Assembly: GCF_004116625.1 (NCBI RefSeq)
Contig: NZ_NXIE01000005.1
Span: 62,001 to 126,000 of the forward strand
Length of the DNA stretch: 64,000 nucleotides
Direction of reading: 5' to 3'
Source: Halarcobacter mediterraneus
GTDB lineage: Bacteria > Campylobacterota > Campylobacteria > Campylobacterales > Arcobacteraceae
In this document: positions 11,065 to 26,615 of the stretch, piece after piece
Layout: the number at the start of each line of letters is the position of its first letter
Numbering within the stretch: position 1 is the first letter of the stretch
Position numbers and translations under genes: made by a program
Notes under the pieces: model-generated
The model's database searches: none
What the model was told of the DNA's origin: nothing
Seen by the model: the letters and a program-made list of their open reading frames with translations, nothing else

Positions 11065-11793
11065 TTATAATACTGAAGATAAAAAGTTTTTTAATTCATT
11101 TGTTTGGGGCTTAGCAAAAACTTCTTCACTCTCTCCTGTTTCCCAAATTTTACCATTGTGCATAAAAATAACTCTATCTCCAATGTCTCTTGCAAAGTTC
11201 ATTTCATGGGTAACTAAAATCAAAGTAATTCCCTCTTTTGCTAACTCTTCTAATACTTTCAAAACTTCACCAACTAATTCAGGGTCAAGAGCAGATGTAA
11301 TCTCATCACAAAGCAATACTTTTGGAGACATAGCTAAAGACCTTGCTATTGCAACCCTTTGTTTTTGTCCACCTGATAAACTTTCTGGATATTGATCAAA
11401 AAACTGATCCATACCAACTTTTTTTAGGCATTGTATTGCTAGTTTTTTTGCTTCTTCTTTACTTTTCCCAAGTATTAATCTTGGAGATAACATCACATTT
11501 TCACCAGCAGTTTTATGTGGATATAGATTAAAACTTTGAAATATCATTCCACAAACTTTACTTATTTTTTGAAGTTGTAGATCATTTGTAGTAACCTCTA
11601 AATTACCAACGACAATATTACCCTTTTGATGTTCTTCAAGACCATTTATACATCTAAGAAGTGTACTTTTACCTGAACCAGATCTTCCAATTATAGAAAG
11701 AACCTCTCCAGCTTTAACCTCTAAGTCAATACCCTTTAAAATATGTTTCTCTCCATAATATTTATGTACACCTTCTAAACTAACTAGCGACAT
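11065..11793 (-). CDS. Polar amino acid ABC transporter ATP-binding protein (GlnQ/ArtP type)
   Basis: A 242-residue ATPase with Walker A GRSGSGKSTLLRCINGLE, the Q-loop in MIFQSFNLYPHKT, signature ESLSGGQKQRVAIARSLA, Walker B VLLCDEITSALDPELV and the H-loop VTHEMNFARDI. The LRCINGLE and MTHEM-like elements are diagnostic for the PAAT (polar amino acid) family. It overlaps the preceding permease gene by 14 bases. It is the last gene of the operon transcribed leftward from 13961. Confidence 0.9.
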   Translation of the reverse strand: MSLVSLEGVHKYYGEKHILKGIDLEVKAGEVLSIIGRSGSGKSTLLRCINGLEEHQKGNIVVGNLEVTTNDLQLQKISKVCGMIFQSFNLYPHKTAGENVMLSPRLILGKSKEEAKKLAIQCLKKVGMDQFFDQYPESLSGGQKQRVAIARSLAMSPKVLLCDEITSALDPELVGEVLKVLEELAKEGITLILVTHEMNFARDIGDRVIFMHNGKIWETGESEEVFAKPQTNELKNFLSSVL

Positions 11794-12430
11794 TTAATTT
11801 CCTTTCTAAATATTTACTATATTTTGTAAGTGGGAAACAGATTACAAAATATAAAATGGCAACCATTGTAAACACTTTAAATGGTTCAAATGTTGCATTG
11901 TTTAACATAGTTCCTGCTTTTGTAAGTTCAATAAATCCAATAATTGAAGCTAAAGCTGTTCCTTTTACAACTTGTACAGAAAATCCTACAGTTGGTGCTG
12001 TTGCTAATCTAACTGATTGGGGAATAATTACATGAAACATTGTTTGATAATAATTTAATCCCATTGTTTTACAAGCTTCCCATTGTCCTTTAGGAACTGA
12101 ATCTAAGCAACCCTTCCAAATTTCACAAAGAAAAGCACTTGTAAATAGGGTTAAAGCTAAACTAGCTGCAGTCAATTCGTTAACTTCAACACCAATTAGT
12201 GATAATCCAAAAAATGCTAAGTATAACTGCATTAATAATGGAGTTCCTTGAAAAACTTCTATATATATTTTTATTAATATTGATAAAAAACGATTATTAA
12301 TCATTCTTAATAATATTAAAATTCCTGCAACTATTCCTCCTCCAATAAAAGCAATTAAAGACAATAAGATAGTCCATCTAGTTGCTAATAATAGATTATG
12401 AAAAATATCTAATGTTGAAATATCAGCCAT
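11780..12430 (-). CDS. Polar amino acid ABC transporter permease (HisM/GlnP family), second subunit
   Basis: A 216-residue inner-membrane permease with about five helices. The conserved coupling segment is present: EVFQGTPLLMQLYLAFFG near the N-terminal third, then WKGCLDSVPKGQWEACKTMGLNYYQTMFHVIIPQSVR, the EAA-type loop that docks on the ATPase. It lies one base after the other permease gene; the two are expected to form a heterodimeric channel. Confidence 0.9.
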   Translation of the reverse strand: MADISTLDIFHNLLLATRWTILLSLIAFIGGGIVAGILILLRMINNRFLSILIKIYIEVFQGTPLLMQLYLAFFGLSLIGVEVNELTAASLALTLFTSAFLCEIWKGCLDSVPKGQWEACKTMGLNYYQTMFHVIIPQSVRLATAPTVGFSVQVVKGTALASIIGFIELTKAGTMLNNATFEPFKVFTMVAILYFVICFPLTKYSKYLERKLNVAS

Positions 12431-12431
12431 A

Positions 12432-13112
12432 TTAATTTCCTTCTTTTACAGCATTTATTTTAAATAGTCTATTACTTATAAGACTAAGTATAAATCTTAA
12501 AATGATTGCAAAAACTAAATATATTGCTGTAACTATAAAGTATGGTTCAAAGCTTAGAAATGTACGAGATTGAATGAAGTTAGCTGAAAAAGTTAATTCT
12601 TCTACAGAGATTTGTGATAAAACAGATGAACCTAACATTACAATTACACATTGACTTATCAAAGCTGGTGATATTTTATGAAAAGCTTGTGGTAAAATTA
12701 TATGGATAAATATTTGTGACCATTTTAGTCCCATTGTTTTACCTGCTTCCCATTGTCCCTTTCCCGTTGCTTCAAGTCCAGCTCGTATGATTTCTGTTGA
12801 ATAAGCTCCTAAGTTAATAATCATTGCAATTATTCCAGCTTCTATGGCTGTTAATGTAAAACCAATTGCTGGTAAACCAAAAAAGATAAAAAATAGTTGT
12901 ACTATAAATGGAGTATTTCTTATTATTTCAACAAAAGCATTTACAAAACTTTTTAGAGTTTTATTTTCTCCAATTTTTATTGCAGCTCCAAGAATACCTA
13001 ATAATAGACCTAAAATTGTTGTGAAAATTGTTATTTTGATAGTTAGTTGTATACCTTTAATTATCACTTCATAGTATGGGAAAACTCCCGCAAAATAGAA
13101 TTCGTAATCCAT
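12432..13112 (-). CDS. Polar amino acid ABC transporter permease (HisM/GlnP family), first subunit
   Basis: A 226-residue permease with the PAAT motifs IIRNTPFIVQLFFIFFGLP and the EAA loop AGLEATGKGQWEAGKTMGLKWSQIFIHIILPQA. The start at 13112 (MDYEFYFAG) is chosen over a longer frame from 13166 because an AAGGAAG Shine-Dalgarno lies directly upstream of it, and the extra N-terminal residues are not typical of the family. It partners with the adjacent 216-residue permease. Confidence 0.88.
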   Translation of the reverse strand: MDYEFYFAGVFPYYEVIIKGIQLTIKITIFTTILGLLLGILGAAIKIGENKTLKSFVNAFVEIIRNTPFIVQLFFIFFGLPAIGFTLTAIEAGIIAMIINLGAYSTEIIRAGLEATGKGQWEAGKTMGLKWSQIFIHIILPQAFHKISPALISQCVIVMLGSSVLSQISVEELTFSANFIQSRTFLSFEPYFIVTAIYLVFAIILRFILSLISNRLFKINAVKEGN

Positions 13113-13178
13113 AATTCTTCTTCCTTTCGAGTAATGATTGATATTTAAAATAAATTTAAACACCAATCATAAAATGTA

Positions 13179-13961
13179 TTATAAATCTTTTGGAAGATCC
13201 ATTTTGAACCATTTATTTGAAATTTCATTTAATTTCCCATTCTCTTTATTTTCTTTTATAAATTCATTTATAAATTTCATAAGCTCTGGTTCATGTTTTT
13301 TTACTCCTATGTAACATGGGTTATTAACTATCATGAATTTTGTCAAAGCTTCTTCTTTTCCTGGATTTTTTCTAGCCATTTCACTTACTATTACATTGCC
13401 TGTAGCAATTAATTTTACTTGACCTGAAAGGAAAGATGAAGTTGTCATATTATTATCTTCATATCTTTTAATGGTAACTGATGAATCAACTAATTTTGAT
13501 AATTCAATATCTTCAATAGTACCTCTAGTAACACCTACTATTTTACCTTTTAAATCTACTGGTGACGAAACTTTTACATCCTTGCTTCCAAATACACCTA
13601 AATAAAATATTGCATATGCATCTGAAAAATCAATTGCTCTTGCTCTTTCTGGATTTTTACCCAAACTTGATATTGTCAAATTTACTTTCCCTGTTTGTAA
13701 ATAAGGAATTCTATTTGCACTAGCAACTGGAATAAGTTCTAACTTTACTCCTAACTTTTTTGCAATGAGATTCGCAGTGTCAACATCATAACCTTGTATA
13801 CTCATATCTTTTGAAACAGAACCAAATGGTGCAAAATCCTGAGGAACTGCAATTTTAATAACACCTTTTGACTTGATATCATCTAATTGATTTGCACTTA
13901 ATAATGAAGCACCTAATAATGCACCTGTAACTAAACCCTTAAGTAATGTATTTTTAAACAT
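13179..13961 (-). CDS. Amino-acid-type ABC transporter substrate-binding protein (SBP_bac_3)
   Basis: A 260-residue periplasmic binding protein with an N-terminal Sec signal (TLLKGLVTGALLGASLLSANQ). It has SBP family 3 features: IKIAVPQDFAPFGSV, GYDVDTANLIAKKLGVKLELIPV, NRIPYLQTGKVNLTISSLG and GKIVGVTRGTIEDIEL. It is the first gene of the leftward operon. A GTnnACAATTATTGTnnAC site (13986-14004) lies 25 bases ahead of its start, in the position expected for a repressor site. Shared control with the ureide genes suggests a ureide or related nitrogen compound as ligand, but this is inference. Confidence 0.88.
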   Translation of the reverse strand: MFKNTLLKGLVTGALLGASLLSANQLDDIKSKGVIKIAVPQDFAPFGSVSKDMSIQGYDVDTANLIAKKLGVKLELIPVASANRIPYLQTGKVNLTISSLGKNPERARAIDFSDAYAIFYLGVFGSKDVKVSSPVDLKGKIVGVTRGTIEDIELSKLVDSSVTIKRYEDNNMTTSSFLSGQVKLIATGNVIVSEMARKNPGKEEALTKFMIVNNPCYIGVKKHEPELMKFINEFIKENKENGKLNEISNKWFKMDLPKDL

Positions 13962-13983: not shown

Positions 13984-14006
13984 TTGTGAACAATTATTGT
14001 AAACAT
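13984..14006. promoter_or_regulatory. Putative GntR-family operator, left site (TTGTGAACAA and TTGTAAACAT)
   Basis: The 19-bp motif GTGAACAATTATTGTAAAC at 13986-14004 is an imperfect inverted repeat sharing the invariant core ACAATTATTGT with two other sites in the window. It can be read as two TTGTnnACAA units starting at 13984 and 13997, 13 bp apart. It lies just ahead of the leftward amino-acid-type binding protein gene. The binding protein is inferred to be the GntR/FCD regulator at 19525. Confidence 0.6.
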
Positions 14007-14103
14007 TTTAATAATAGATTAATATGTTTAATTAGTCAACATATTATTTGTATATATAGTAAACATATATTTATTAAATTTAAGAGTTTTAAAAATGTAT
14101 ATT

Positions 14104-14139
14104 TTGTAGACAATTATTGTCTACAATAAATGTCTACAG
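14104..14139. promoter_or_regulatory. Putative GntR-family operator, central site with three units
   Basis: A perfect 23-bp palindrome (arms TTGTAGACAAT and ATTGTCTACAA around one T) spans 14104-14126. A third unit, ATGTCTACAG, follows at 14130-14139. Unit starts are 14104, 14117 and 14130, an exact 13-bp step. The site lies 63 to 98 bases before the binding-protein gene at 14202, over the likely promoter. The sequence is seen directly; the regulator is inferred. Confidence 0.65.
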
Positions 14140-14201
14140 TCTGATATTATGTTTCATGTTTTATCAATGATAAATATTAAATAAATTAAGGAGATAAAAT
14201 T

Positions 14202-15371
14202 ATGAAAAGATTTCTGAAAATTGGTTTAGCAGTTGGAATGCTAAGTAGTACTCTTTTAGCACAAGAGAGTATAAAAATTGGTTTTGTTGGTACCTTATCA
14301 GGGGCAAATGCAGCTTGGGGTACATCAAATGTAAGGTCAATGGAAACATCAGCAGACATTTACAATAAAAATGGTGGAGTTGAAATTGCTGGTAAAAAAT
14401 ATAAAGTAGAGATTGTACCTTTTGATGACGCCTTTGATCCAAAGATAGCTGTTGCAGGTATGGAAAAAATGGCACAAGAAGGTATTAAATATGTTGTTGG
14501 TCCAAATGATGATGCCCAAGCAATTGCAGTAAAACCAATAGCAGAGAGAAATAAAATTGTATATTTTCCATATGCCTTTGATAAAAGTTTATATGTAAAA
14601 CCAGCAAACTATGCTGTATTTGGAATGATTGCTTCATATCAATGGGAACCATCAGTTTATAAATGGTTAAAAGATAATAAAGATGTTAAATCTGTAGCAT
14701 TTATTGCAGCAAATGCAGCTGATCCATTAAACCAAAGAGATAATGGTATTAAAATCGCCCAAGACTTAGGTTTAAAAGTTGTTGAAGCAAAAGCTACATA
14801 TAAAGCTGACACTAGAGATTTCTTTTCAGTAATTACTCCAATTATTAAGAAAAAACCTGACCTTTTAGTTCTATCAGGAGTATCTCCTGCTACTGCGCCA
14901 CTTATTATTAAAACAGCAAGACAATTAGGTTTTAAAGGTTATATGGCAGCAGGAACTGCTCTTGATGCAAGTATTTTAAAAGAGGGTGCTGGAGATGCAG
15001 CAAATGGATTTATTTGTCAAGGTGGAGCAGATGCTTCTATTCAATCAGAGAAAATGGAAAAATGGGTTGAACACTATACAAACAAATATGGTGAATACAA
15101 TGATGAATCAAATACTAAAGTATTTGCATTAGAGTATATTTTAGCTGTATTAAAATCAAATCCAAAAGCTATCAATGATGCAGATGAGTTCTTAAAAACT
15201 GTAGATTCAGGTTGGTCAGCACCAAATCTTTTTTTCAAAGATGAAAATGCAAAACTTAAATTTGTAGGTAAAACTACATTTGGTCAAAATAGACAATTAG
15301 GAGTTCCTTTAACTCCAAAAATTTATAAAGATGGAAAGTTTGAAACACTTTTCGTAGGTCAAGCAGATTAA
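14202..15371 (+). CDS. Branched-chain-type ABC transporter substrate-binding protein (Peripla_BP_6)
   Basis: A 389-residue periplasmic binding protein with a Sec signal (FLKIGLAVGMLSSTLLAQ). The mature start IKIGFVGTLSGANAAWG and the segment YVVGPNDDAQAIAVKPIAERN place it in the LivJ/amide-urea-binding group. It heads a five-component importer (this gene plus the genes at 15427, 16303, 17265 and 18049) that runs directly into the racemase gene. The substrate is not readable from sequence. The linked racemase, allantoinase and shared operators make allantoin or another ureide/hydantoin the best guess. A GGAG RBS is present. Confidence 0.85.
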   Translation: MKRFLKIGLAVGMLSSTLLAQESIKIGFVGTLSGANAAWGTSNVRSMETSADIYNKNGGVEIAGKKYKVEIVPFDDAFDPKIAVAGMEKMAQEGIKYVVGPNDDAQAIAVKPIAERNKIVYFPYAFDKSLYVKPANYAVFGMIASYQWEPSVYKWLKDNKDVKSVAFIAANAADPLNQRDNGIKIAQDLGLKVVEAKATYKADTRDFFSVITPIIKKKPDLLVLSGVSPATAPLIIKTARQLGFKGYMAAGTALDASILKEGAGDAANGFICQGGADASIQSEKMEKWVEHYTNKYGEYNDESNTKVFALEYILAVLKSNPKAINDADEFLKTVDSGWSAPNLFFKDENAKLKFVGKTTFGQNRQLGVPLTPKIYKDGKFETLFVGQAD

Positions 15372-15377
15372 TTTAAA

Positions 15378-15405
15378 AGAGGTATCTTCTGATACCTCTA
15401 TTTTT
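15378..15405 (+). terminator. Intra-operon hairpin with T-tract after the binding-protein gene
   Basis: A perfect stem AGAGGTATC / GATACCTCT with a TTCT loop (15378-15399) is followed by ATTTTT. It lies in the 55-base gap between the binding-protein gene and the first permease. Such hairpins commonly act as partial terminators or 3'-stabilisers, letting the binding protein be made in excess of the membrane components. Confidence 0.7.
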
Positions 15406-15426
15406 AGAAAATAGGAAACTCATTTT

Positions 15427-16299
15427 ATGGAACAAATATTACTAAATGGTTTAATTACAGGTGCTCAATATGCCCTTATAGCCTTAGGTTTAACGCTAAT
15501 ATTCTCACTTATGAGTATATTGAATTTTGCTCACGGACAAATGTATGTATTAGGTGCATTTGTAACTTACTATGTTTATGGAAAACTTGGACTTCCTTTT
15601 ATTGTAGCTATTATTGCTTCGGGTTTAACATTAGCACTAATAGGTGCCATATTTGAAAAATATCTTTTCAATACTGTCTTAAAAAGATCTGTTAGAGAAG
15701 AAAGCTCAATGCTTCTTGCTGCTGGTACTGCTTTTTTCTTAGATTCATTAATACTAATTGTATTTGGAGAAAAACAACGAAGTGTTCCAGCACTTGTTGA
15801 TGGAGTATTTTTTGGTGAAGATTATGGAATAGATTTGATTATTCCATATAACAGAATTGTAATAGGATTAATTGCAATAGTTTTAATTGTTTCATTTATT
15901 CTTTTTATGCAATATTCAAAACCAGGTCGAGCTATGAGAGCTTTAGCACAAGATAAAACTGCATCTCAACTAATGGGTGTTGATTTAGATAAATATAGTT
16001 TGTTTGGGTTCGCACTTGGAGCTATGCTTGCAGGTGTTGCAGGGAGTTTATTAGTAACTATTACAGGGGTAAACTCTGGTATTGGAGGAGGTATCTCTAT
16101 TCAAGCTTTTACCATGATTATGATTGGTGGTGCTGGAGTTATTTCAGGTGCTATTTTAGGTGGATTTATTTTAGGTTTAGTTGAGGCTTTTGGACTTTAT
16201 TATCTTCCAGGAGATGTAACTTACCTTACTATATTTGTATGTTTAATGATATTTCTTACTCTTCGTCCACAAGGACTTATGGGTAAACCTTGGGGGTGA
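15427..16299 (+). CDS. ABC transporter permease, LivH family
   Basis: A 290-residue membrane permease with about eight helices. Family signs include NGLITGAQYALIALGLTLIFSLM at the N-terminus, ILNFAHGQMYVLGAF, the coupling segment YSKPGRAMRALAQDKTASQLMGVD and GGAGVISGAILGGFILG. It is the first of two permeases forming the channel of the ureide-region importer. A GGAAACTCATTTT RBS region precedes the ATG. Confidence 0.9.
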   Translation: MEQILLNGLITGAQYALIALGLTLIFSLMSILNFAHGQMYVLGAFVTYYVYGKLGLPFIVAIIASGLTLALIGAIFEKYLFNTVLKRSVREESSMLLAAGTAFFLDSLILIVFGEKQRSVPALVDGVFFGEDYGIDLIIPYNRIVIGLIAIVLIVSFILFMQYSKPGRAMRALAQDKTASQLMGVDLDKYSLFGFALGAMLAGVAGSLLVTITGVNSGIGGGISIQAFTMIMIGGAGVISGAILGGFILGLVEAFGLYYLPGDVTYLTIFVCLMIFLTLRPQGLMGKPWG

Positions 16300-16302
16300 T
16301 TT

Positions 16303-17268
16303 GTGGAAAATAAAAGTTTTATATTAAAAGTAATAATTGCATTAATAGTTTTATTAATTGTTATACCTAGTGTTTTAGTTTTAACACAAAGAAATGATTA
16401 CCTTTATGGTATCACCTCAGTTGCTGTTCTTTCTATGATTAGTGCAGGAGTTTGGTTAACTTTTTATATGGGAAGAATCAATATTGGACAAGGAGCTTAT
16501 GCCCTAATTGGAGCATATACAACTGCTGTTTTAGTTACCCAATTAGGTTTATCTTTTTGGATATCTATTTTTGTAGCAGGTTTTGTAGCAGCTTTCTTTA
16601 GTATTCTAATAGGGATACCTATTTTAAGATTAAAAGGGGTGTATTTTTCTATGATTACACTAACTTTAACAGAAGTTGCAAAACTTCTAGCAATAGCTTT
16701 AGTTCCAATTACAAATGGCCCTAGAGGGATTACAAATATTCCATTACCAGGGGAACTTAGTATTTTTGGACTAACACTTATTCCAGATTTTGCCACTATG
16801 GAAAACAGTAAAATTGGATTTTATTATCTTGCAGTAATTGCTATGATTATAACTTTTGCAATAATGTATAGACTTACAAAATCAAGAATGGGGATTTTAC
16901 TTAGATCTTTACAACAAAATGAAGAGTTAGCTTCCTCTTTTGGGGTAAATATTGCATATTTAAGAGTTATCTCTTATGCCATTGCTTCATTTTTTGGTGG
17001 AGTTGGAGGAGCAATTTTTATAAACCTAACCCAATCAGTTTATCCAACTACTTTCCAAGTAGCTGACTCAATTAACTATATGCTTTATACATTCTTAGGT
17101 GGTTTAGCCTATGTATTTGGCCCAATATTAGGTTCTTTTGTATTGTATTTTTCTTGGGATTTATTATTTATATTCAAAGAGTATCAATTATTAATTTACT
17201 CTGGGATAATGATTATTTTAATGGTATTTTTACCAAATGGAATTTTGAGTTTAAGGTTTAAAAAATGA
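16303..17268 (+). CDS. ABC transporter permease, LivM family
   Basis: A 321-residue permease with about nine helices, partnering the LivH-type subunit. Typical LivM features are GRINIGQGAYALIGAYTTA, LRLKGVYFSMITLTLTEVAKL and SRMGILLRSLQQNEELASSFG (coupling loop). It starts with GTG at 16303, three bases after the previous stop, behind a GGGGTGA sequence that can serve as RBS. The last four bases overlap the following ATPase gene. Confidence 0.9.
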   Translation: MENKSFILKVIIALIVLLIVIPSVLVLTQRNDYLYGITSVAVLSMISAGVWLTFYMGRINIGQGAYALIGAYTTAVLVTQLGLSFWISIFVAGFVAAFFSILIGIPILRLKGVYFSMITLTLTEVAKLLAIALVPITNGPRGITNIPLPGELSIFGLTLIPDFATMENSKIGFYYLAVIAMIITFAIMYRLTKSRMGILLRSLQQNEELASSFGVNIAYLRVISYAIASFFGGVGGAIFINLTQSVYPTTFQVADSINYMLYTFLGGLAYVFGPILGSFVLYFSWDLLFIFKEYQLLIYSGIMIILMVFLPNGILSLRFKK

Positions 17269-18047
17269 AAAAAAGAGTTTTAGAAATAAACAATCTAACA
17301 AAAAAATTTGGTTCTTTATATGCTGTAAATGATGTCACCTTTGAAGTTTATGAAGGGGAGATTTTATCTGTAATTGGTCCAAATGGAGCAGGAAAATCAA
17401 CAACATTTAAACTAATCTCTTCTTTTTTAAAACCAAGTTCTGGGGAAGTGATTTTTAATAGAGAAAAGATATCTGGTTTAAAACCACATATTGTAGCAAG
17501 AAAAGGAGTAGTTAGAACCTTTCAAGAAACAACAGTTTTTAAAAGTATGAGTGTTAGGGACAATATTATTATAGCCCACCAATTACAAGCAAAATCAAAT
17601 CTTTTAGGGTTTTTCTTTAATACAAAATTAGCAAAAGAAGATACTCAAAGATTTGGTAAATCTGCCGATGAGATTATTGAGTTTTTAGGCTTAAGTGATG
17701 TTAAAGATGAGCTTGCATCAAATCTTCCCCATGGATTATTAAGAGCTTTAGGAATAGCAAATGCTTTAGCTTGTAAACCAAAAGTTTTACTTCTTGATGA
17801 GCCTTTTGCTGGAATGAATCATGATGAGACAAGAAGATGTATGAATATGGTAAAACAGATTAAAAACTCTGGTGTTACTGTACTTTTAGTAGAACACGAT
17901 ATGCCAGCAGTTATGGAGATATCAGACAGAATTGTAGTTATTAGTTTTGGAGAAAAAATAGCTGAGGGAAAACCTGAAGAAATCCAAAAAAATCCTAAAG
18001 TAATAGAAGCTTACTTAGGTGTAGAAGATGAAGAGTTAGGAATATAA
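17265..18047 (+). CDS. ABC transporter ATP-binding protein, LivG family, with unusual signature loop
   Basis: A 260-residue LivG-type ATPase with Walker A GPNGAGKSTT near residues 37-46, VVRTFQET as Q-loop, Walker B VLLLDEPFAGMNHDE and the H-loop VEHDMPAVMEI. The signature loop reads LPHGLLRALGIANAL, where LivG proteins normally have a Gln or acidic residue and RRLEIARAL. The invariant glycine is kept, so it is probably functional but diverged. ATGA overlap with the permease before and a one-base gap to the next ATPase show a single operon. Confidence 0.87.
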   Translation: MKKRVLEINNLTKKFGSLYAVNDVTFEVYEGEILSVIGPNGAGKSTTFKLISSFLKPSSGEVIFNREKISGLKPHIVARKGVVRTFQETTVFKSMSVRDNIIIAHQLQAKSNLLGFFFNTKLAKEDTQRFGKSADEIIEFLGLSDVKDELASNLPHGLLRALGIANALACKPKVLLLDEPFAGMNHDETRRCMNMVKQIKNSGVTVLLVEHDMPAVMEISDRIVVISFGEKIAEGKPEEIQKNPKVIEAYLGVEDEELGI

Positions 18048-18048
18048 A

Positions 18049-18768
18049 ATGGCATTATTAGAGTGTAAAGATTTAGAAATAAATTATGACCAAGTAAGAG
18101 CAGTAAAAAAAGTTAGCTTAAGTCTAGAAGAGGGTGAAACAATCACTTTAATTGGTGCAAATGGAGCTGGAAAATCTTCTATTCTAAAAGCAATAACAGG
18201 TCTTAAAAAACCAAGTTCAGGTGAAGTGATTTTCAATGGTGAAAGTCTAAATGGTGTAAGTCCTTCTAAAATAGTTGAAAAAGGGATTGCAATGACCCCT
18301 GAGGGAAGAAGAGTATTTCCTTATATGAGTGTAAAGGATAATCTTCTAATGGGTGCTTTTACTAGAAAAGACAAAGATGGAATTAAAGAGGATTTAGAAA
18401 AAGTTTTAGAAAAGTTTCCAAGACTTAAAGAAAGATATAAACAACAAGCAAGCACTATGAGTGGAGGGGAGCAACAAATGATGGTTATTGGACGTGCTCT
18501 TATGTCTAGACCCAAAGTTTTACTAATGGATGAACCAAGTCTTGGTATTGCCCCAAAACTAGTTCAAGATATTGCAAGGTCAATTGTACAAATCAACAAA
18601 GAAGACAAAGTATCTGTTATCTTAGTTGAACAAAACTCAAGAATGGCACTTAAAGTTTCAAATAGAGCCTATGCAATGCAATTAGGTGAAGTTTTATTAA
18701 GTGGACAATCAAAAGATTTAATGCACGATGAAAGAATTATTGAACTATATTTAGGGGGAACTCACTAA
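18049..18768 (+). CDS. ABC transporter ATP-binding protein, LivF family
   Basis: A 239-residue LivF-type ATPase with Walker A GANGAGKSS near residues 36-44, the family-typical EGRRVFPYMSVKDNLLMGA, signature TMSGGEQQMMVIGRALM and Walker B VLLMDEPSLGIAPKLV, and the VEQNSRMAL loop. It pairs with the LivG-type protein. Its stop overlaps the racemase start by one base, tying transport to ureide metabolism. Confidence 0.9.
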   Translation: MALLECKDLEINYDQVRAVKKVSLSLEEGETITLIGANGAGKSSILKAITGLKKPSSGEVIFNGESLNGVSPSKIVEKGIAMTPEGRRVFPYMSVKDNLLMGAFTRKDKDGIKEDLEKVLEKFPRLKERYKQQASTMSGGEQQMMVIGRALMSRPKVLLMDEPSLGIAPKLVQDIARSIVQINKEDKVSVILVEQNSRMALKVSNRAYAMQLGEVLLSGQSKDLMHDERIIELYLGGTH

Positions 18769-19466
18769 TGAAACTAGCAATTATAAATCCAAACTCAACA
18801 GAATCTATGACAAAAAAGTGTGAAGAGCTTGCTTTAAAATTCAAAAACCCTGACACAGAGATTTGGGCTTCAAACCCAACAAACAGTCCAAAAAGTATCG
18901 AAGGACACTATGATGAAGTAAAAAGTTTGATGGGCTTACTTGATGAGATAAAAAAAGCAAAAGAGTGGGGAGCTGATGCTTTCGTTGTCGCTTGTTTTGA
19001 TGACCCAGGATTAGAAGCAGCTAGAGAGCTTGTAGATGGTCCAGTTATTGGAATATGTGAAGCAGCTATGCATATGACTTCAATTGTTTCTTCTAGTTTT
19101 TCTGTGGTTACAACTCTTAATAGATCAGTTCCGATTATTGAAGAGTTATCTCACAAATATGGTATGGATAAATTTTGTAGAAAAGTAAGAGCAGCTGATA
19201 TTCCGGTTCTTTCTTTAGAAGATGGCACTTGTAATGCAATGGAAAAAATAGAGAGTGAGATTTTAAAAGCAGTCAAAGAAGATAATTGTGAAGCTATTAT
19301 TTTAGGGTGTGCGGGAATGGCTGATTTAACAATTGAATTATCAAAAAGATGTAATATTCCAGTTGTTGATGGTGTATTGTGTGCAATTAAGATGGCTGAA
19401 TCAATGGTTGGAGCAAAATTAATGACAAGCAAAATAAATGCATATGCATATCCAATTTCAAAATAA
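18768..19466 (+). CDS. Asp/Glu/hydantoin racemase family protein, probable allantoin racemase
   Basis: A 232-residue member of the hydantoin/allantoin racemase family. These enzymes use two cysteines to invert the C5 centre of a hydantoin ring. Both candidates are visible: VACFDDPGLEAARELV (about residue 76) and IILGCAGMADL (about residue 184). The N-terminus AIINPNSTESMTKKCEE is family-typical. Translation is coupled to the transporter ATPase by overlap, and allantoinase follows at 20371. The most likely role is conversion of (R)-allantoin to the (S)-form used by allantoinase. Hydantoin racemase is the alternative. Confidence 0.8.
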   Translation: MKLAIINPNSTESMTKKCEELALKFKNPDTEIWASNPTNSPKSIEGHYDEVKSLMGLLDEIKKAKEWGADAFVVACFDDPGLEAARELVDGPVIGICEAAMHMTSIVSSSFSVVTTLNRSVPIIEELSHKYGMDKFCRKVRAADIPVLSLEDGTCNAMEKIESEILKAVKEDNCEAIILGCAGMADLTIELSKRCNIPVVDGVLCAIKMAESMVGAKLMTSKINAYAYPISK

Positions 19467-19524: not shown

Positions 19525-20211
19525 ATGAGTTCAGAAAATATTTTTCCAGTTGAGGATACTATTGTTAATTTTATTTTTGATGCAATTTTTACAAAAAAAT
19601 TACATCCAGGAATAAAATTATCAGAAAGTGTACTTGCAAAAGAGTTAAATACAAGTAGAGATGTTGTAAGAAAAGCATTCAGCAAACTACAAACTATGGG
19701 TATTTTAAGTTATAAAAAAAATCAAGGTTTTAATGTAGTTTGGATTAGTGAAGAAAATGCAAAAGATATCTTTGCAACAAGAAAAATAATTGAAGTAGGT
19801 ATTGTTGAAATTGTTACAAAAAGATATTCAAAAGAAAATTTAGACTTATCCTCACTTTTAGAAAATATTGATACTGAAGAGTATCTAAAACTATCACACA
19901 GAAATGGGGAGTATGTTAAATCATCTTGCGATTTCCATTTAAATTTAGCGGCATTAAGTAAAAATGAGTTTTTAATTAATGCCTTAAAACCTTTAATCCC
20001 TTTAAGTATACTTGCTGCATTGATTTATGAAGATGAAAATACAGAGTTTTCTTCTTACGATGAACATAGAGTTTTAATTGAGACAATTAAAAGTAATAAT
20101 GTTAATAATGCAAAAAACGTTATGTCAGAACATTTAGACCATTGCCTTGATGTTTTAGATTTTAATTTAGATACAATTAATAAAAAGAATAAATTTCTTT
20201 TTGCTAACTAA
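19525..20211 (+). CDS. GntR-family transcriptional regulator, FCD (FadR-like) type
   Basis: A 228-residue regulator. Residues 10-75 form a winged HTH (HPGIKLSESVLAKELNTSR, DVVRKAFSKLQTMGILSYKK). The rest is the helical FCD ligand domain with ATRKIIEVGIVE and the metal-site-like DFHLNLAALSKN and DEHRVLIETIKSNN with EHLDHCLDVL. The histidines and aspartate in these segments match FCD metal ligands. It lies between the racemase and allantoinase genes. Three near-identical palindromes flank it (13984, 14104, 20282), so it is the best candidate for their binder. The effector could be allantoin or a breakdown product (inference). Confidence 0.88.
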   Translation: MSSENIFPVEDTIVNFIFDAIFTKKLHPGIKLSESVLAKELNTSRDVVRKAFSKLQTMGILSYKKNQGFNVVWISEENAKDIFATRKIIEVGIVEIVTKRYSKENLDLSSLLENIDTEEYLKLSHRNGEYVKSSCDFHLNLAALSKNEFLINALKPLIPLSILAALIYEDENTEFSSYDEHRVLIETIKSNNVNNAKNVMSEHLDHCLDVLDFNLDTINKKNKFLFAN

Positions 20212-20281
20212 CTATTTGTATAACTTAATTAATTTTACCTTTTTTACTTAACTTTAAGACGAATGTATAAAAAATAAACAA

Positions 20282-20318
20282 AGATTGTCTACAATTATTG
20301 TAGACAATCTGATAGAAT
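20282..20318 (+). promoter_or_regulatory. Perfect 29-bp operator palindrome and -10 ahead of puuE
   Basis: Positions 20282-20310 form a perfect palindrome (14-base arms AGATTGTCTACAAT and ATTGTAGACAATCT around a single T). It contains the same ACAATTATTGT core as the sites near 14 kb, and two TTGTnnACAA units 13 bp apart. A likely -10 (TAGAAT, 20313-20318) abuts it, so bound regulator would block the promoter of puuE-alc-allA. The puuE start is 53 bases downstream. Confidence 0.7.
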
Positions 20319-20370
20319 AATCTCATAAATAAATTATAAAAGTAGTTTTTGCTTTTTTATGAGAGAGAAA

Positions 20371-21291
20371 ATGATTAATAACAATTATCCAAGAGATTTA
20401 ATTGGTTACTCAAACGAACCAATAAATCCAAAATGGCCCAATGGGGCAAAAGTTGCACTTCAATTTGTATTAAATTATGAAGAGGGTGCAGAAAACTGCA
20501 TTTTACATGGAGATAAGGCTTCAGAAGTATTTCTTTCGGAAATGAACAACCCACAAGCTTTTATTGGACAAAGACACAAATCTATGGAATCATTGTATGA
20601 ATATGGTTCAAGAGTTGGTGTTTGGAGATTATTAGAACTTTTTAAAGAGTTTGACATTCCTATTACTATCTTTGCTGTTGCAATGGCTGTTGCTAGAAAT
20701 CCTAAATTAGCCGAATACCTTGCACTTAACAATTATGACATCTGTTCCCATGGATATAGATGGATTAACTATCAACAAATAGATGAATCAATTGAAAGAG
20801 ATCACTTATACAAAAGTATTGAAATTTTAGAAAAAATGATTGGAACAAGACCACTTGGTTGGTACACTGGACGTGATAGTGAAAATACAAGAAAACTTGT
20901 TGTTGAAGAGGGTGGATTTCTTTATGACAGTGATGCTTACAACGATGACTTACCATATTTTGCACCAGAAATCACAACAAAAGAACATTTAGTAATCCCA
21001 TATACTATGGATAACAACGATATGAGATTTGTATTTGGTGGATTTTCATATAGCGAACAATTTTATAACTATTTAAAAGACAGTTTTGATGCTCTTTATT
21101 TAGAAGGTGCAAAATCTCCAAAAATGATGAGTATTGGTATGCATTGTAGAATCTTAGGAAAACCTGGAAGAATTATGGCTATGAGAAAGTTCTTAGAGTA
21201 TGTAAGAGGTTTTGATGATGTGTGGTTTGCTACAAGGGGTGAGATAGCAAATCATTGGATTAATAATTTTAGTAACAAAGGAAGAAAATGA
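20371..21291 (+). CDS. puuE: Allantoinase, PuuE (polysaccharide-deacetylase-like) type
   Basis: A 306-residue PuuE-family allantoinase, which hydrolyses allantoin to allantoate without the amidohydrolase fold of classical AllB. The family N-terminus YPRDLIGYSNEPINPKWP, VALQFVLNYEEGAEN, ASEVFLSEM and the NodB-fold segments DICSHGYRW and SIGMHCRILGKPGR are present. The start at 20371 is preferred over 20359: a purine-rich GAGAGAGA lies ahead of it, while nothing resembling an RBS precedes 20359. It is the first gene after the operator palindrome and overlaps the allantoicase gene by four bases. Confidence 0.9.
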   Translation: MINNNYPRDLIGYSNEPINPKWPNGAKVALQFVLNYEEGAENCILHGDKASEVFLSEMNNPQAFIGQRHKSMESLYEYGSRVGVWRLLELFKEFDIPITIFAVAMAVARNPKLAEYLALNNYDICSHGYRWINYQQIDESIERDHLYKSIEILEKMIGTRPLGWYTGRDSENTRKLVVEEGGFLYDSDAYNDDLPYFAPEITTKEHLVIPYTMDNNDMRFVFGGFSYSEQFYNYLKDSFDALYLEGAKSPKMMSIGMHCRILGKPGRIMAMRKFLEYVRGFDDVWFATRGEIANHWINNFSNKGRK

Positions 21292-22286
21292 TAAATGTTG
21301 CAAGCTGTGAATTAGGAACAGAAGTAATTTACACTACAGATGAGTTTTTTGCAAATGCAAATAGAATGTTACAAGAAACAGAGGCTGTATTTAAAGATGA
21401 GTTTGATGACAATGGTCACTGGATGGACGGTTGGGAAACTAGAAGAAGAAGAGATGGTGGAAATGACCATTGTATTATTAAACTAGGGAACCTTTCAAAA
21501 ATCAACTCATTTTTAGTTGATACTTCGCACTTTAGAGGAAACTATCCTTTAGCAGTTGCTATTAAAGGTTGTTGTGTAAAAGACAAAGATGATAAAGCAT
21601 TTTTAGAAGATATTGATAGTGTTCAGTGGGTTGAGCTTTTAGGTCAAAGTGATTTAGAAGGTCATACAAAACACGATTTTGCTTCTCTTTCTCAAACTGA
21701 ATTAACTCACATAAGAGTTGATATCTATCCAGATGGTGGAATTGCAAGATTTAAAGCCTTTGGTGAAATTTGCTTTGATGAAAAACTTTATGAGCAAGAG
21801 AATATCAATGTAGCTTCAATGAGAAATGGAGCAAGAGCAGTTTATACAAACAATGAATTCTTTGGTCCTTTAAGAAATATTTTAAAAGATAATGAAGCTA
21901 TCAACATGGGTGATGGTTGGGAAACTAGAAGAAGAAGAGAACCAGGATTTGACTGGGGAATCATTGAGTTAGCTAAGCCTGCAATTCTTGATAATATTAT
22001 GATTGATACAAACTTCTTCAAAGGAAATTTTGCAGATAAATTTTCAATCAGCGCTGCATATTTAGAGGAGACAACAGATAGTTCAGTTGTAACACAAAGT
22101 ATGTTTTGGGAAGAGTTAATTGCACCACAAAAACTTAAGATGCACAACAAACACTATTTTGATAAAAGTTTTTTAAACCATCAAAAACCAATAACACATA
22201 TTAGAATAAATATTTTCCCAGATGGTGGAGTTTCAAGACTAAAACTATTTGGGAAATTTGTTAAAAAAGAAGAAATAAAGGCTTAA
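21288..22286 (+). CDS. alc: Allantoicase
   Basis: A 332-residue allantoicase, which converts allantoate to ureidoglycolate and urea. The two-fold internal repeat of the family is obvious: MDGWETRRRRDGGNDHCIIKL in the first half and GDGWETRRRREPGFDWGIIEL in the second. Each is followed by VDTSHFRGNYP or IDTNFFKGNF and by THIRVDIYPDGGIARFK or THIRINIFPDGGVSRLK. Translation is coupled to puuE through an ATGA overlap, and allA follows one base after its stop, giving a compact three-step operon. Confidence 0.92.
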   Translation: MINVASCELGTEVIYTTDEFFANANRMLQETEAVFKDEFDDNGHWMDGWETRRRRDGGNDHCIIKLGNLSKINSFLVDTSHFRGNYPLAVAIKGCCVKDKDDKAFLEDIDSVQWVELLGQSDLEGHTKHDFASLSQTELTHIRVDIYPDGGIARFKAFGEICFDEKLYEQENINVASMRNGARAVYTNNEFFGPLRNILKDNEAINMGDGWETRRRREPGFDWGIIELAKPAILDNIMIDTNFFKGNFADKFSISAAYLEETTDSSVVTQSMFWEELIAPQKLKMHNKHYFDKSFLNHQKPITHIRINIFPDGGVSRLKLFGKFVKKEEIKA

Positions 22287-22287
22287 T

Positions 22288-22806
22288 ATGAGAGTGGAAT
22301 TAAAGCCAAAATCTCTTACACAAGAAGCTTTTAAAAAGTTTGGAGAAGTCGTAGAGTTTGAAAATAGAGATTCAAAAATCATAAACAATGGCTACGCACA
22401 GAAGTTTTATGAGCTTTGTACAATGGATGCAAATGAAAAAGGAGGACGTTCTACTTTACATATTTATATAGGGAAAAGTAGAGAATTCCCTTTACATATT
22501 GATATGTTGGAGAAGCACCCTTTTTTCTCTCAAACTTTTATGCCAAGAAGCAAAGAACCATTTTTATGTGTTGTTGCATTAGGAGATGAAAAACCTGATT
22601 TATCAACAATTGAAGTTTTTGTTACAAATGGAGAGCAAGGGGTTTATTACAATAGAGGTATTTGGCATTTTCCATTAATTTGCTTAAAAGATAAAGAGCA
22701 ATTTATTGTTATAGATAGAGCAGATAATAAAACAGAAGAACAAAAAATTGTCGAATGTATAGAATATGATCTAAAAAAAGAAAGTATCTATTTACTAAAG
22801 AGGTAA
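22288..22806 (+). CDS. allA: Ureidoglycolate lyase, second paralog
   Basis: A 172-residue AllA-family protein completing the puuE-alc-allA operon; it releases glyoxylate and the second urea from ureidoglycolate. Motifs: HIDMLEKHPFFSQTFMPRS, VVALGDEKPDLSTIEVF, TNGEQGVYYNRG and IWHFPL. It is closely related to the 6923 copy, with long identical blocks. It retains the proline in WHFPL seen in other AllA proteins and is probably the main catabolic copy. A long inverted repeat lies 35 bases after its stop. Confidence 0.92.
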   Translation: MRVELKPKSLTQEAFKKFGEVVEFENRDSKIINNGYAQKFYELCTMDANEKGGRSTLHIYIGKSREFPLHIDMLEKHPFFSQTFMPRSKEPFLCVVALGDEKPDLSTIEVFVTNGEQGVYYNRGIWHFPLICLKDKEQFIVIDRADNKTEEQKIVECIEYDLKKESIYLLKR

Positions 22807-22841
22807 TATGTTAGAAGAAAATGATAGTAAACCACCATAAA

Positions 22842-22883
22842 GACTTTTTTATTTCAATATTTTAATATTTCCATAAAAAAGTC
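22842..22883. repeat. 42-bp inverted repeat downstream of allA, possible terminator
   Basis: Perfect 11-base arms GACTTTTTTAT and ATAAAAAAGTC enclose a 20-base loop, which is itself self-complementary (AATATT, TT, AATATT). The whole can form one long A/T-rich stem. It lies between allA and the NCS1 permease and may end or attenuate the upstream operon. The string ATAAAGACTTTTTT recurs at 22975. Confidence 0.5.
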
Positions 22884-22951
22884 ATAACGCCAATTTGATT
22901 ATATAAAAAGAAATATTAAAAAAAGGAATTTTATGGAGATGAAAACTTAGG

Positions 22952-23011
22952 TTCCATTACGAGATAACTATTGATAAAGACTTTTTTGTAGTGGATTTAT
23001 TTATATTAAAT
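22952..23011 (+). pseudogene. Possible remnant of an AllA-like C-terminus
   Basis: In one frame this stretch reads FHYEITIDKDFFVVD, which resembles the AllA C-terminal segment of the two intact paralogs (WHFSLLCIKDKEEFFVID and WHFPLICLKDKEQFIVID). It also matches at the nucleotide level around ATAAAGA..TTTTTTGTA. No longer homology is visible, and stops occur just upstream. The similarity is short and could be chance; it is reported as a possible decayed third copy. Confidence 0.25.
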
Positions 23012-23026
23012 ATATTAGGAATTATT

Positions 23027-24451
23027 ATGATAAATGATGTAAACAGTGACTCTTTGTCACCTACAAAAAAGAGTGAGAAAAATTGGAAATGGTTTGAAGT
23101 GTCAAATATCTGGGCAAATGATATACAAAGTCTTTTTGGATATACACTAGTTGCCTCACTTTTTATAAGTTATGGAGTAACAGGTTGGACTGCATTTTTT
23201 GCACTTATTGTTGCTGGATTATTGGTTACTTTTTTAGTAAATATTTCAGGTAAAGCTGGAGTTGACTATGGAATTCCTTATCCTGTTCTTGCACGTTCAA
23301 GTATGGGAGTAAATGGGGCTAAATTATCAGCTATTATAAGAGCTATAGTTGCTGTTTTTTGGTTTGGAGTTCAAACATATTTTGCTTCAACTGCCTTACA
23401 CCTTTTAATTACTGCTTCTACAGGGATTCACCCTGAAGTTAAATTTTTAGGTATTGATTCAATTGGTTGGTTATCTTTTTTTATTGTATGGATACTTCAA
23501 ATGGTGATTTTCTCAAAAGGAATGTCATGGGTATCTAAATTCTTAAATTTTGCAGCTCCTTTTGTTTATATCATTATGATTGGATTATTAGTTGTTTTAT
23601 GGAGTAAATCTAGTGGAGATTTATTTAATGTTGCAAATAATATCTTCTCTCATGAAGGTTCAACTTTTAGTAGTGAAGTAAATGGTTTTTTTGCAATTCT
23701 AGGAACAATGATTGCTTATTTTGCAGCTGTTATGATTAACTTTAGTGACTTTTCAAGATATGCAAAAGATGAAAAATCAATGGTAGTTGGAAATTTTGTG
23801 GGACTACCTTTTAATATGGTTTTTTTCTCAGCTTTGGCACTTTTAATAACTGCTGGTTCAGTTGTAGTATTTGGTGAAAAACTAACAAACCCTATGGATA
23901 TTGTTGAAAGAGCTGATAGTACAGTATTAAGTTTAGTTGCTGCAATTACATTTTTTACTGCAACTGTAGGTATTAATTTAGTTGCTAACTTTATTCCTGC
24001 TGTTAATGGTATCTCAAATCTTGCACCCAAAAAACTTTCATTTAAAAAATCTGGTGTAATAACATCATTATTTGCACTTGTGATTGGCGGATTTTGGGTA
24101 AGTTTTATTAGTAATGTAGGAATTAGTCCAATAGTAAATACTCTTGGTGCAACACTTGCTCCTTTATATGGGATTTTAATTGTTGATTACTATTTTGTTA
24201 AAAAACAAAAATTGAATATTGACTCGTTATATGATGAAAGTGAAAAAAGTGAATATTATTATGATAATGGGTGGAATAAAAATACAATTATTGCATTTTC
24301 AATTGGAGCAGTTTTTTCAATTTGCACCGTATGGGTTGAGAATTTGAGCTTACTTAATGGTTATGGATGGATTATTGGAGCACTTCTTGGTGGGGTAGTG
24401 CATTTAACTTTATCAAAAAATGAAACACAAAAAGAATTAGCTTTTATCTAA
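23027..24451 (+). CDS. NCS1-family nucleobase/allantoin:cation symporter
   Basis: A 474-residue permease with about twelve helices. The NCS1 signature is clear: SNIWANDIQSLFGYTLVAS at the first helix, GVDYGIPYPVLARSSMG, then VAVFWFGVQTYFAS, NFSDFSRYAKDEKSMVVGNF and LYGILIVDYYFVKKQKL. In this gene context the likely cargo is allantoin or a related ureide/hydantoin. Uracil or other nucleobases are possible because the family is broad. The ATG at 23027, with an AGGA seven bases upstream, is chosen over a GTG at 22991 whose extra residues belong to the possible AllA remnant. Malate synthase follows ten bases later. Confidence 0.87.
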   Translation: MINDVNSDSLSPTKKSEKNWKWFEVSNIWANDIQSLFGYTLVASLFISYGVTGWTAFFALIVAGLLVTFLVNISGKAGVDYGIPYPVLARSSMGVNGAKLSAIIRAIVAVFWFGVQTYFASTALHLLITASTGIHPEVKFLGIDSIGWLSFFIVWILQMVIFSKGMSWVSKFLNFAAPFVYIIMIGLLVVLWSKSSGDLFNVANNIFSHEGSTFSSEVNGFFAILGTMIAYFAAVMINFSDFSRYAKDEKSMVVGNFVGLPFNMVFFSALALLITAGSVVVFGEKLTNPMDIVERADSTVLSLVAAITFFTATVGINLVANFIPAVNGISNLAPKKLSFKKSGVITSLFALVIGGFWVSFISNVGISPIVNTLGATLAPLYGILIVDYYFVKKQKLNIDSLYDESEKSEYYYDNGWNKNTIIAFSIGAVFSICTVWVENLSLLNGYGWIIGALLGGVVHLTLSKNETQKELAFI

Positions 24452-24461
24452 AAGGAAAAAT

Positions 24462-26615
24462 ATGTATATAAAAATAAATAATTTAAATATTGATGAAAAA
24501 CTATTAAATTTAATAAACGAAGAGATTCTTCCACAAACAGAAATCAAAAAAGCAGATTTCTGGAAGAATTTTGAAGATATTATTAATCAATTAACTCCTG
24601 AAAACATCTCTTTACTAAAAAAAAGAGATGAACTTCAAGCACAAATTGATACTTGGCATAAAACTAATAAATACGATGAAAATAGTTTTGATGAGTATAA
24701 AAACTTTTTAAAACAAATTGGTTATTTAGTTGAAGAAAAAGAAGAGTTCAAAGTAGAAACACAAAATGTAGATGAAGAAATAAAACTTCAAGCAGGACCA
24801 CAACTAGTTGTTCCAGTTAAAAATGCTAGATTTGCTTTAAATGCTGCAAATGCTAGATGGGGAAGTTTATATGATGCTCTTTATGGAACTGATGTAATCT
24901 CAACTGATGGCGAACTAGCAATTACAAAAGAGTACAATGAAAAAAGAGGAAAAGCAGTTGTAGATTATGCGAAAGAGCATTTAGATACAGTTGCACCACT
25001 TAAAGAGGGAAGCTATAAAGATGCAATTTCATATAAAATAGTTGAAGAAAAATTAGAAGTAGAGTTTTCAAACACTACAACAACTTTAGAAGATGCTTCA
25101 AAACTAGTTGCTTACGAGGGTGAAAAAGAAAACCTAAAAGCATTAGTATTTAAAAACAACAATCTTCATGTAATTGTTGAGTTTGACAAAGAAAGCTTTA
25201 TTGGAAAACTTGATGTTGCAGGGGTAAAAGATATAGTTGTAGAAGCTGCAGTTTCTACTATTATGGATTGTGAAGACTCTATTGCAGCAGTAGATACCCA
25301 AGATAAAGTTGAAGTTTATAGAAACTGGTTTGGTCTTATGAAAGGTGATTTAGAAGACAGCTTTGAAAAAGGTGGCAAAACAGTTACTAGAACATTAAAT
25401 GCTGATAAAAAATATAAAACTATAGATGACAAAGAGTTATTTCTACACGGAAGAAGTCTTCTATTTATTAGAAATGTTGGTCATCTTATGACAAATCCAG
25501 CTATTTTAGATAAAGATGGAAATGAAGTTTATGAAGGGATTATGGATTGTATGATTACAACTTTAGCTGCAATTCCTGATTTAACAAACAAAAACGAAAA
25601 GAAAAATAGTAGAACAAAATCTATTTATATAGTAAAACCAAAAATGCATGGACCCCAAGAAGTTGCCTTTGCAGTTAAACTATTTGAAAGTGTAGAAAAA
25701 GCTTTAAATCTTCCAGAAAATACAATCAAAATAGGAATTATGGATGAAGAAAGACGAACTACAGTTAATCTAAAAGAGTGTATTAGACAAGCTTCTAAAA
25801 GAGTAGTATTTATTAATACTGGATTTTTAGATAGAACAGGTGATGAGATTCATACTTCTATGCTAGCAGGAGCCATGACACCTAAAACAAAAATGAAAAG
25901 TGAAACTTGGATAAAAACTTATGAGACTTGGAATGTTGATATTGGTTTAGAGTGTGGACTGCAAGGTAAAGCTCAAATTGGAAAAGGGATGTGGGCTATG
26001 CCAGATGAGATGGCAAAAATGATGCTTGAAAAAATTTCTCACCCAAAATCAGGTGCAAACACTGCTTGGGTACCATCTCCTACTGCTGCAACTTTACACT
26101 CAATGCACTATCATAAAGTTAATGTACTAAGTATCCAAAATGAGTTAAAAGGAAAAAGAAAAGCAAGTTTAAATGAGCTTTTAACAATACCTTTACTTAA
26201 AGAAGATTTATCAAAAGAGATTATTAAAAATGAAATAGATAATAACTGCCAAAGTATTTTAGGATATGTTGTTAGATGGATTGATGCAGGAATTGGATGT
26301 TCTAAAGTTCCTGATATAAATAATGTAGCACTTATGGAAGATAGAGCAACACTTAGAATCTCCTCTCAACATCTTGCAAACTGGATAGAACATGGAATTT
26401 GTACAAAAGAGGAAGTTTTAGAGTCTTTAAAACAGATGGCAAAAGTTGTTGATAAACAAAATGAAAAAGATACAAGTTATATAAATATGGCACCAAGTTA
26501 TGATGGCTATGCATTTAAAGCAGCAAGTGATTTGATTTTTAAAGGAAAAGCTCAGCCTTCTGGTTATACAGAGCCTTTATTACATATGTACAGATTAAAG
26601 TATAAGAATAATTAG
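24462..26615 (+). CDS. glcB: Malate synthase G
   Basis: A 717-residue monomeric malate synthase, which condenses glyoxylate with acetyl-CoA to malate. Diagnostic G-type segments are LNAANARWGSLYDALYGTD, AVSTIMDCEDSIAAVD, KPKMHGPQEVAFAVKLF, GIMDEERRTTVNLKECI and GLQGKAQIGKGMWAMPDEM. The length matches the G isoform (about 720). It starts ten bases after the NCS1 permease with an AAAAGG RBS, so it is probably cotranscribed. Placement next to allantoin genes indicates that it disposes of glyoxylate made by AllA. No isocitrate lyase is in the window, in line with that role. Confidence 0.95.
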   Translation: MYIKINNLNIDEKLLNLINEEILPQTEIKKADFWKNFEDIINQLTPENISLLKKRDELQAQIDTWHKTNKYDENSFDEYKNFLKQIGYLVEEKEEFKVETQNVDEEIKLQAGPQLVVPVKNARFALNAANARWGSLYDALYGTDVISTDGELAITKEYNEKRGKAVVDYAKEHLDTVAPLKEGSYKDAISYKIVEEKLEVEFSNTTTTLEDASKLVAYEGEKENLKALVFKNNNLHVIVEFDKESFIGKLDVAGVKDIVVEAAVSTIMDCEDSIAAVDTQDKVEVYRNWFGLMKGDLEDSFEKGGKTVTRTLNADKKYKTIDDKELFLHGRSLLFIRNVGHLMTNPAILDKDGNEVYEGIMDCMITTLAAIPDLTNKNEKKNSRTKSIYIVKPKMHGPQEVAFAVKLFESVEKALNLPENTIKIGIMDEERRTTVNLKECIRQASKRVVFINTGFLDRTGDEIHTSMLAGAMTPKTKMKSETWIKTYETWNVDIGLECGLQGKAQIGKGMWAMPDEMAKMMLEKISHPKSGANTAWVPSPTAATLHSMHYHKVNVLSIQNELKGKRKASLNELLTIPLLKEDLSKEIIKNEIDNNCQSILGYVVRWIDAGIGCSKVPDINNVALMEDRATLRISSQHLANWIEHGICTKEEVLESLKQMAKVVDKQNEKDTSYINMAPSYDGYAFKAASDLIFKGKAQPSGYTEPLLHMYRLKYKNN

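Follow-up and report, generated by a model that had tools for sequence, protein, structure and literature searches.

Between two divergent operons of Halarcobacter mediterraneus stand three short palindromes at a fixed spacing, which raises the question of what reads them and whether each is half of an operator or an operator in its own right. In the window analysed here, a 64,000-nucleotide stretch of contig NZ_NXIE01000005.1, the rightward operon carries branched-chain/urea-type ABC components together with a GntR/FCD regulator. Our best explanation, to which we assign a probability of about 0.8, is that each of the three units is a complete operator for this regulator of the same cluster. 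The coordinates of all features are collected in Table 1, and the comparisons with published systems draw on parts of the papers cited.

The palindromic units and their 13-bp register

The initial annotation had placed units at 14104, 14117 and 14130 in exact 13-bp register; all three were located there, and each is a complete 10-bp palindrome of the TTGTnnACAA type. The same step, as also reported then, recurs in a site to the left (13984/13997: TTGTGAACAA, TTGTAAACAT) and in the puuE site (20285/20298: TTGTCTACAA, TTGTAGACAA). The units at 14104 and 14117 together make a 23-bp palindrome that is perfect save for its centre base, as does the puuE pair. Single 10-mers with at most one mismatch are not special in this AT-rich window, with 13 found against 9.5 expected and 13 reached by 9 of 100 shuffles. 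Perfect pairs at the 13-bp step occur four times in the window, and such a pair turned up in only one of 300 Markov-1 simulated windows. Across the whole 2.83-Mb genome, TGTNNACA-N5-TGTNNACA with at most one mismatch was found in 11 places, compared with 4 for the reversed control pattern, and its perfect form in only four, all in the present cluster.

We then compared 17 homologous loci, namely our own, 19.9-kb stretches from 15 other genomes of the family and a locus from another family (G261). They hold 121 perfect TGTnnACA units, 56 arrayed and 65 isolated. Pairs of perfect units no more than 80 bp apart (chains with one-mismatch units are left out of this histogram) show a step of 13 bp in 31 cases and 26 bp in seven, with seven more at six other distances combined. 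Regulator genomes, defined by a regulator match at E 1e-20 or better, number 16 of the 104 in the family. The exact pair TTGTNNACAANNNTTGTNNACAA was found 25 times among the 104 genomes, each time within the stretches around the regulator. It is carried by 11 of the 16 regulator genomes and by none of the 88 without the regulator (Fisher p 2e-11, a value that ignores kinship), and five regulator genomes lack this strict form. Many of the sequences are close relatives, and the counts overstate independence. In a class-wide sample of 397 genomes, which overlaps the family set of 104, the exact pair appeared in four, these being four of the seven with the regulator (E 1e-35 or better) and none of the 390 others, while the reversed control pattern appeared in 2 of 397.

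A sequence-only model of the whole promoter module, built from 24 promoter rows, matches all 16 regulator genomes, none with an E above 4.4e-7; the training rows had come from 15 of them, and the remaining one, G090, was held out. Among the 88 regulator-less genomes, 12 match at 0.01 or better, with a best E of 0.001. The first element of G090 is 1 bp off register, which counts against a strict register where unit 2 has decayed.

Table 1. Positions, strands and supporting evidence of the features in the window
Feature	Position	Strand	Evidence
Operator unit 1, TTGTAGACAA	14104..14113	.	sequence match
Operator unit 2, TTGTCTACAA	14117..14126	.	sequence match
Operator unit 3, ATGTCTACAG, outer bases altered	14130..14139	.	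sequence match
Leader half-site ATGTATATT, 9 bp before unit 1, urtA-like promoter	14095..14103	+	TGTATA with at most one mismatch at this offset in 23/24 canonical modules
TCTGA and -10-like box TATTAT of urtA-like operon, directly 3' of array	14140..14150	+	comparable box in homologous promoters except L033 urtA
Leader half-site ATGTATAAA, puuE promoter	20263..20271	+	promoter alignment, module model match
Degenerate unit 1 of puuE, AAATAAACAA, right half retained, in 13-bp register	20272..20281	+	promoter alignment
puuE operator unit 2, TTGTCTACAA	20285..20294	.	sequence match
puuE operator unit 3, TTGTAGACAA	20298..20307	.	sequence match
TCTGA and -10-like box TAGAAT of puuE operon	20308..20318	+	promoter alignment
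Two units, step 13, near predicted transcription start of divergent amino-acid-type ABC operon	13984..14006	.	13-bp pair also in L032, L034, L036
Sigma70-like promoter of divergent operon: TTGACT (14039-14034), 17 bp, TATTAT (14016-14011)	14011..14039	-	10/12 consensus matches
GntR/FCD regulator, most likely binder of arrays (predicted)	19525..20211	+	domains, co-occurrence
Predicted regulated operon: periplasmic binding protein, ABC permeases and ATPases, Asp/Glu/hydantoin racemase	14202..19466	+	profile matches
Predicted regulated operon: puuE allantoinase, allantoicase, ureidoglycolate lyase, NCS1 permease, malate synthase G	20359..26615	+	profile matches
Predicted regulated divergent operon: polar amino-acid-type ABC transporter	11065..13961	-	profile matches

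A conserved promoter module with a leader half-site

The feature proved wider than first noted, since it includes a leader, a puuE copy with a degenerate first unit, and a -10-like box after both arrays. The module spans 56 bp and runs from a 9-bp leader half-site through up to three units to the -10-like box. When 26 promoters were aligned on the unit adjoining this box, 24 ran in order from the leader through units 1, 2 and 3 and five further bases to the box. The urtA promoters of L033 and L037 have a two-unit form, shorter than the others by one whole 13-bp unit; these two contributed neither to the 24-row model nor to the 24-row counts, and L041 was held out of both. Complete within one mismatch are unit 3 in 23/24 modules, unit 2 in 20/24 and unit 1 in 11/24, and TAnACA of unit 1's right half is kept in 22/24. 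Unit 2 has decayed in L043 and L045 and is damaged in L044 and L046, indicating that three good units are not always needed. A TG precedes the box by 1 bp in 19 of the 24 modules and immediately in three more, and at the L033 urtA promoter the alignment shows no -10-like box at the expected place. Consensus promoter scans list no -35/-10 pair using either the urtA-like or the puuE box of the window, and these two candidate boxes are recognised by conservation alone.

The leader sequence TGTATA, allowing one mismatch, stands at its offset in nearly every module, compared with 3/24 at the best other offset outside the units. In a diverged 11-row subset of our own choosing, the upstream flanks are 38% identical and the module 72%, and the leader is present in 10/11. 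It also precedes the first full unit by 9 bp in the two-unit L033 and L037 urtA promoters; the leader therefore follows the array and not the distance to the -10 box, which speaks against its being an RNA polymerase UP element. The form (T/A/C)TGTATAnn exactly 9 bp before the first unit was seen in both window promoters and in the gntR promoters of L067, L043, L045 and L046, and it is retained even where unit 2 has decayed (L043, L045). Leader and right half of unit 1 together read TGTATA-N5-TAnACA in most modules. A simple operator model gives no explanation for the conserved leader. The locus is a conserved multi-operator promoter module of a kind already known, whose fixed register is unusual and which carries a leader half-site beyond that model; tandem FCD dimers and extra half-sites are already published, and what is new here is a variant of these.

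The site of the divergent ABC operon is built differently. It scores only E 1.1 with the module model, has neither the leader nor a following -10 box, and its pair stands at or after the predicted start of the TTGACT-17-TATTAT promoter. Further GTnnAC hexamers had been listed at 14033 and 14057 and both are present (in TAGTCAACAT and TAGTAAACAT, respectively), but the one at 14033 coincides in part with the TTGACT -35 box of this promoter and need not be an operator. TGTTGACTA is kept at the divergent promoter in the four genomes compared, a retention that its promoter role would explain, and the hexamer may at most be a weak operator. In L044, L045, L046 and L066 (the last from the same genome stretch as L067), a single perfect unit, (G/T)TGTCAACAA, lies near the start codon, upstream of the divergent ABC operon, in place of the 13-bp pair of the window.

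The GntR/FCD regulator as candidate binder

The product of the regulator gene matches GntR (PF00392, 5.7e-9) and FCD (PF07729, 2.9e-12), both above Pfam's cut-off. The GntR match begins at residue 17, profile position 9, so that about eight residues precede the domain. A 15-row protein alignment, which omits L026 and L028 because of a TAG inside the matched stretch, shows E34, R45, R49 and G68 invariant in 15/15 regulators. These residues fit the DNA-contact residues Glu34, Arg45 and Arg49 and the wing Gly of Atu1419, where equating Gly68 with the wing Gly66 is our own assignment. Residue 46 is Asp, not Thr, in all 15. Position 39 of the helix-turn-helix correlates with the central operator bases in the GntR family, Asp preferring G/C in the HutC subfamily (PMC4494728), and if Asp46 corresponds to that position, as in our mapping, it would suit the central G/C of the units.

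The AlphaFold model, made from five sequences, is poor, with a mean pLDDT of 53. Its C-terminal domain has about six helical stretches by our grouping, at a C-terminal pLDDT mostly below 50, and six helices are the criterion for the VanR group. Residues 134-138 read SCDFH, with a Ser four residues before the conserved His, and Ser134 is invariant in the 15 aligned regulators. FCD proteins usually have a metal-binding Asp four residues before this His. Given Ser134, the effector or metal site of the regulator may differ. The regulator also matches the CsiR/GlaR NCBIfam model weakly, at 7.9e-7 and below its cut-off.

Probably one dimer per unit

The arrayed units are mostly asymmetric at their centre only, which is AG or CT in 40/56 of them compared with 12/65 isolated units. 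Neighbours with AG/CT at both centres (n=18) have the same orientation in 11 pairs and the opposite in seven. This freedom argues for one dimer per unit, as a two-unit site should require one fixed relation. In Agrobacterium, the dimer of Atu1419, a member of the VanR group of FCD/GntR regulators, binds the 10-bp ATGTATACAT with Arg45 on G (PMC7797058). Orientation freedom and this precedent suggest that each 10-bp palindrome probably takes one dimer, and the units, described as half-units at first, look like whole 10-bp dimer operators; we rejected the half-unit reading on orientation freedom and on the three-unit arrays. The linker A-T-N-A-T is found in 28/31 pairs at the 13-bp step, suggesting ATTGTNNACAAT as a possible recognition unit, repeated with a single free base between copies. 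The outer T/A pair is present in 49/56 arrayed units, and TTGTnnACAA agrees with the FCD box TKGT/ACMA in which GT and AC are 2 or 3 nt apart. On the minus strand, the terminator mimicry of the puuE pair (20282-20310) stems from the two units being inverted in the H. mediterraneus genome.

Comparison with known regulators

Atu1419 resembles the present system in its type of 10-bp palindrome, in the counterparts of Glu34, Arg45 and Arg49, and in repressing a catabolic cluster. However, its palindromes are 109-190 bp apart, its tetramer can loop them, and the parts of that study compared contain no 13-bp tandem array (PMC7797058). NanR, an FCD/GntR regulator of E. coli, places three dimers cooperatively on three adjacent sites about half a turn apart, and these sites, as here, lie in catabolic promoters (PMC8012715). 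The NanR sites are asymmetrically bound direct GGTATA repeats, whereas the present units are palindromic and free in orientation, and NanR has a 32-residue N-terminal extension that is absent here (PMC8012715). A step of 13 bp had been considered unusual for cooperative binding; as the NanR dimers cooperate at about half a turn, it is no argument against cooperativity, nor is it proof of it. The E. coli GntR-type repressor CsiR/GlaR likewise uses several neighbouring sites per promoter, and its sites TTGTN5TTTT and ATGTN5TTTT have a 9-bp offset like that from leader to unit 1, which we regard as a lead only; its consensus, in contrast, is non-palindromic and its sites are six nucleotides apart (PMC6265302).

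Extra half-sites are also known, in that GntR-family palindromes have weaker additional boxes 7-12 nt from the centre (Suvorova 2015, PMC4494728). Here the TTGT of the leader is 12 nt, and the near half of the neighbouring unit 10 nt, from the palindrome centre, both within that range, but the neighbour is usually a full palindrome, with up to three repeats in fixed register (PMC4494728). The portion of the taxon table compared in that study lists no Epsilonproteobacteria (PMC4494728).

HpxS acts in purine catabolism, and we liken it to the present regulator by role and spacing alone. It is a group of the FadR subfamily whose GT-2 nt-AC spacing is as here (PMC4494728).

Weighing the alternatives

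One dimer or tetramer could instead read two units as a single 23-bp site, a reading to which the near-perfect 23-bp palindromes of the first two units and the puuE pair lend themselves, and Atu1419 is itself a tetramer of two dimers (PMC7797058). We consider this unlikely, because neighbouring units are direct as well as inverted, arrays of three exist, the urtA promoters of L033 and L037 are a full 13-bp unit shorter than the rest, and the DNA sites of the Atu1419 tetramer are about 10 nm apart, far beyond 13 bp (PMC7797058). The initial annotation had left open a dimer on each unit or one across two; the former fits these observations and the latter poorly. Unlikely, too, is that the regulator activates from these sites. 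The scans without a -35/-10 pair for the window's -10-like boxes would allow promoters that need help, but units at -40 to -18 fall within the usual RNA polymerase footprint, the pair at the divergent operon is at or after the predicted start, and the FCD regulators cited, NanR, Atu1419 and CsiR, are repressors (PMC8012715, PMC7797058, PMC6265302).

The GTnnAC box is common to FadR-subfamily regulators (PMC4494728), so a different, unlinked regulator might bind the units; this is very unlikely, since the arrays co-occur with the regulator gene and the exact pair is missing from every family genome without it. We find it hardly credible that the palindromes work at the RNA level, as a hairpin or terminator, and not as DNA operators. 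The puuE pair of the window does fold at -16.5 kcal/mol (z -6.9) and scores terminator-like on the minus strand, and of three orthologous pairs in direct-repeat form, two are still more stable than their shuffles (z -3.3 and -4.6, compared with -1.4 for the third). Each unit is palindromic, however, and would fold to some extent in any case; in direct-repeat form the pairs are far less stable (-4.9, -9.8 and -11.3 kcal/mol) while their units are still perfect, and an array upstream of the predicted -10 box would be untranscribed from that promoter. We set this reading aside as stability falls in the puuE orthologues while the units persist.

A model for the operator array

In the preferred reading of three complete operators, one dimer would occupy each 10-bp palindrome, or 12 bp if the flanking A and T are counted. 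On a helix of 10.5 bp per turn, a 13-bp step computes to 44 Å along the helix and 86° of rotation, and adjacent dimers would be displaced and turned by about these amounts. Taking -12 as the start of the -10 hexamer, units 1, 2 and 3 would occupy -53 to -44, -40 to -31 and -27 to -18, with the leader from -62 to -54. Bound dimers, filling about -53 to -18, would exclude RNA polymerase and so repress, until released by some intermediate of purine or ureide breakdown; the pair of the divergent ABC operon lies near the predicted transcription start instead. As a tentative extension, which we hold to be possible but less than even in likelihood, the array could be an operator ladder in which three dimers spiral round the DNA, each about one and a quarter turns beyond the last, with the leader as a half-occupied fourth site that anchors them at a 9-bp offset. 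The number of intact units would then set the steepness of ureide induction, and the contact geometry would be unlike those of NanR and Atu1419, as far as these are known here in part (PMC8012715, PMC7797058).

Gene neighbourhood and predicted regulon

The cluster reads as a putative pathway for ureide breakdown to glyoxylate and onward. Urea-type models match the ABC components below their cut-offs, and the transporter substrates are thus putative. In its own genome, the module model is strong only at the urtA-like (1.1e-12) and puuE (1.7e-14) promoters, with reverse-strand echoes at 5.5e-6 and 2.2e-5, respectively. A wider regulon in this genome was rejected, as the next best match after these is 0.5. 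Autoregulation of gntR in the window was likewise rejected, as the interval between 14131 and 20286 is free of perfect units; in the loci of seven relatives, an array stands upstream of gntR. The G090 module lies between guanine deaminase and an ORF that we read as a permease, which has no NCBIfam match, and one of the modules of G010 is placed likewise. A module or array in this setting, between guanine deaminase and a permease-like ORF, was noted in two relatives at L038 12448-12544 and L041 11934-11987, which suggests that the regulon may extend to purine uptake and deamination there.

We found no name or description of the regulator in the open-access literature covered, where the allantoin-related GntR matches, judged from listings, concern Mycobacterium and Brevibacterium. 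Matches there for Arcobacter with allantoin are unrelated by title, as are all among the matches listed for TTGTAGACAA as a text string, and tandem-operator wording gave no match. A large compilation of proteobacterial regulons left out Epsilonproteobacteria, according to the part of it considered (PMC5343134). The natural variants of the module, with two or three units, intact or half-decayed and direct or inverted, allow the cooperativity of tandem GntR dimers to be tested on short DNA, and our findings predict a regulon of this regulator in Arcobacter relatives.
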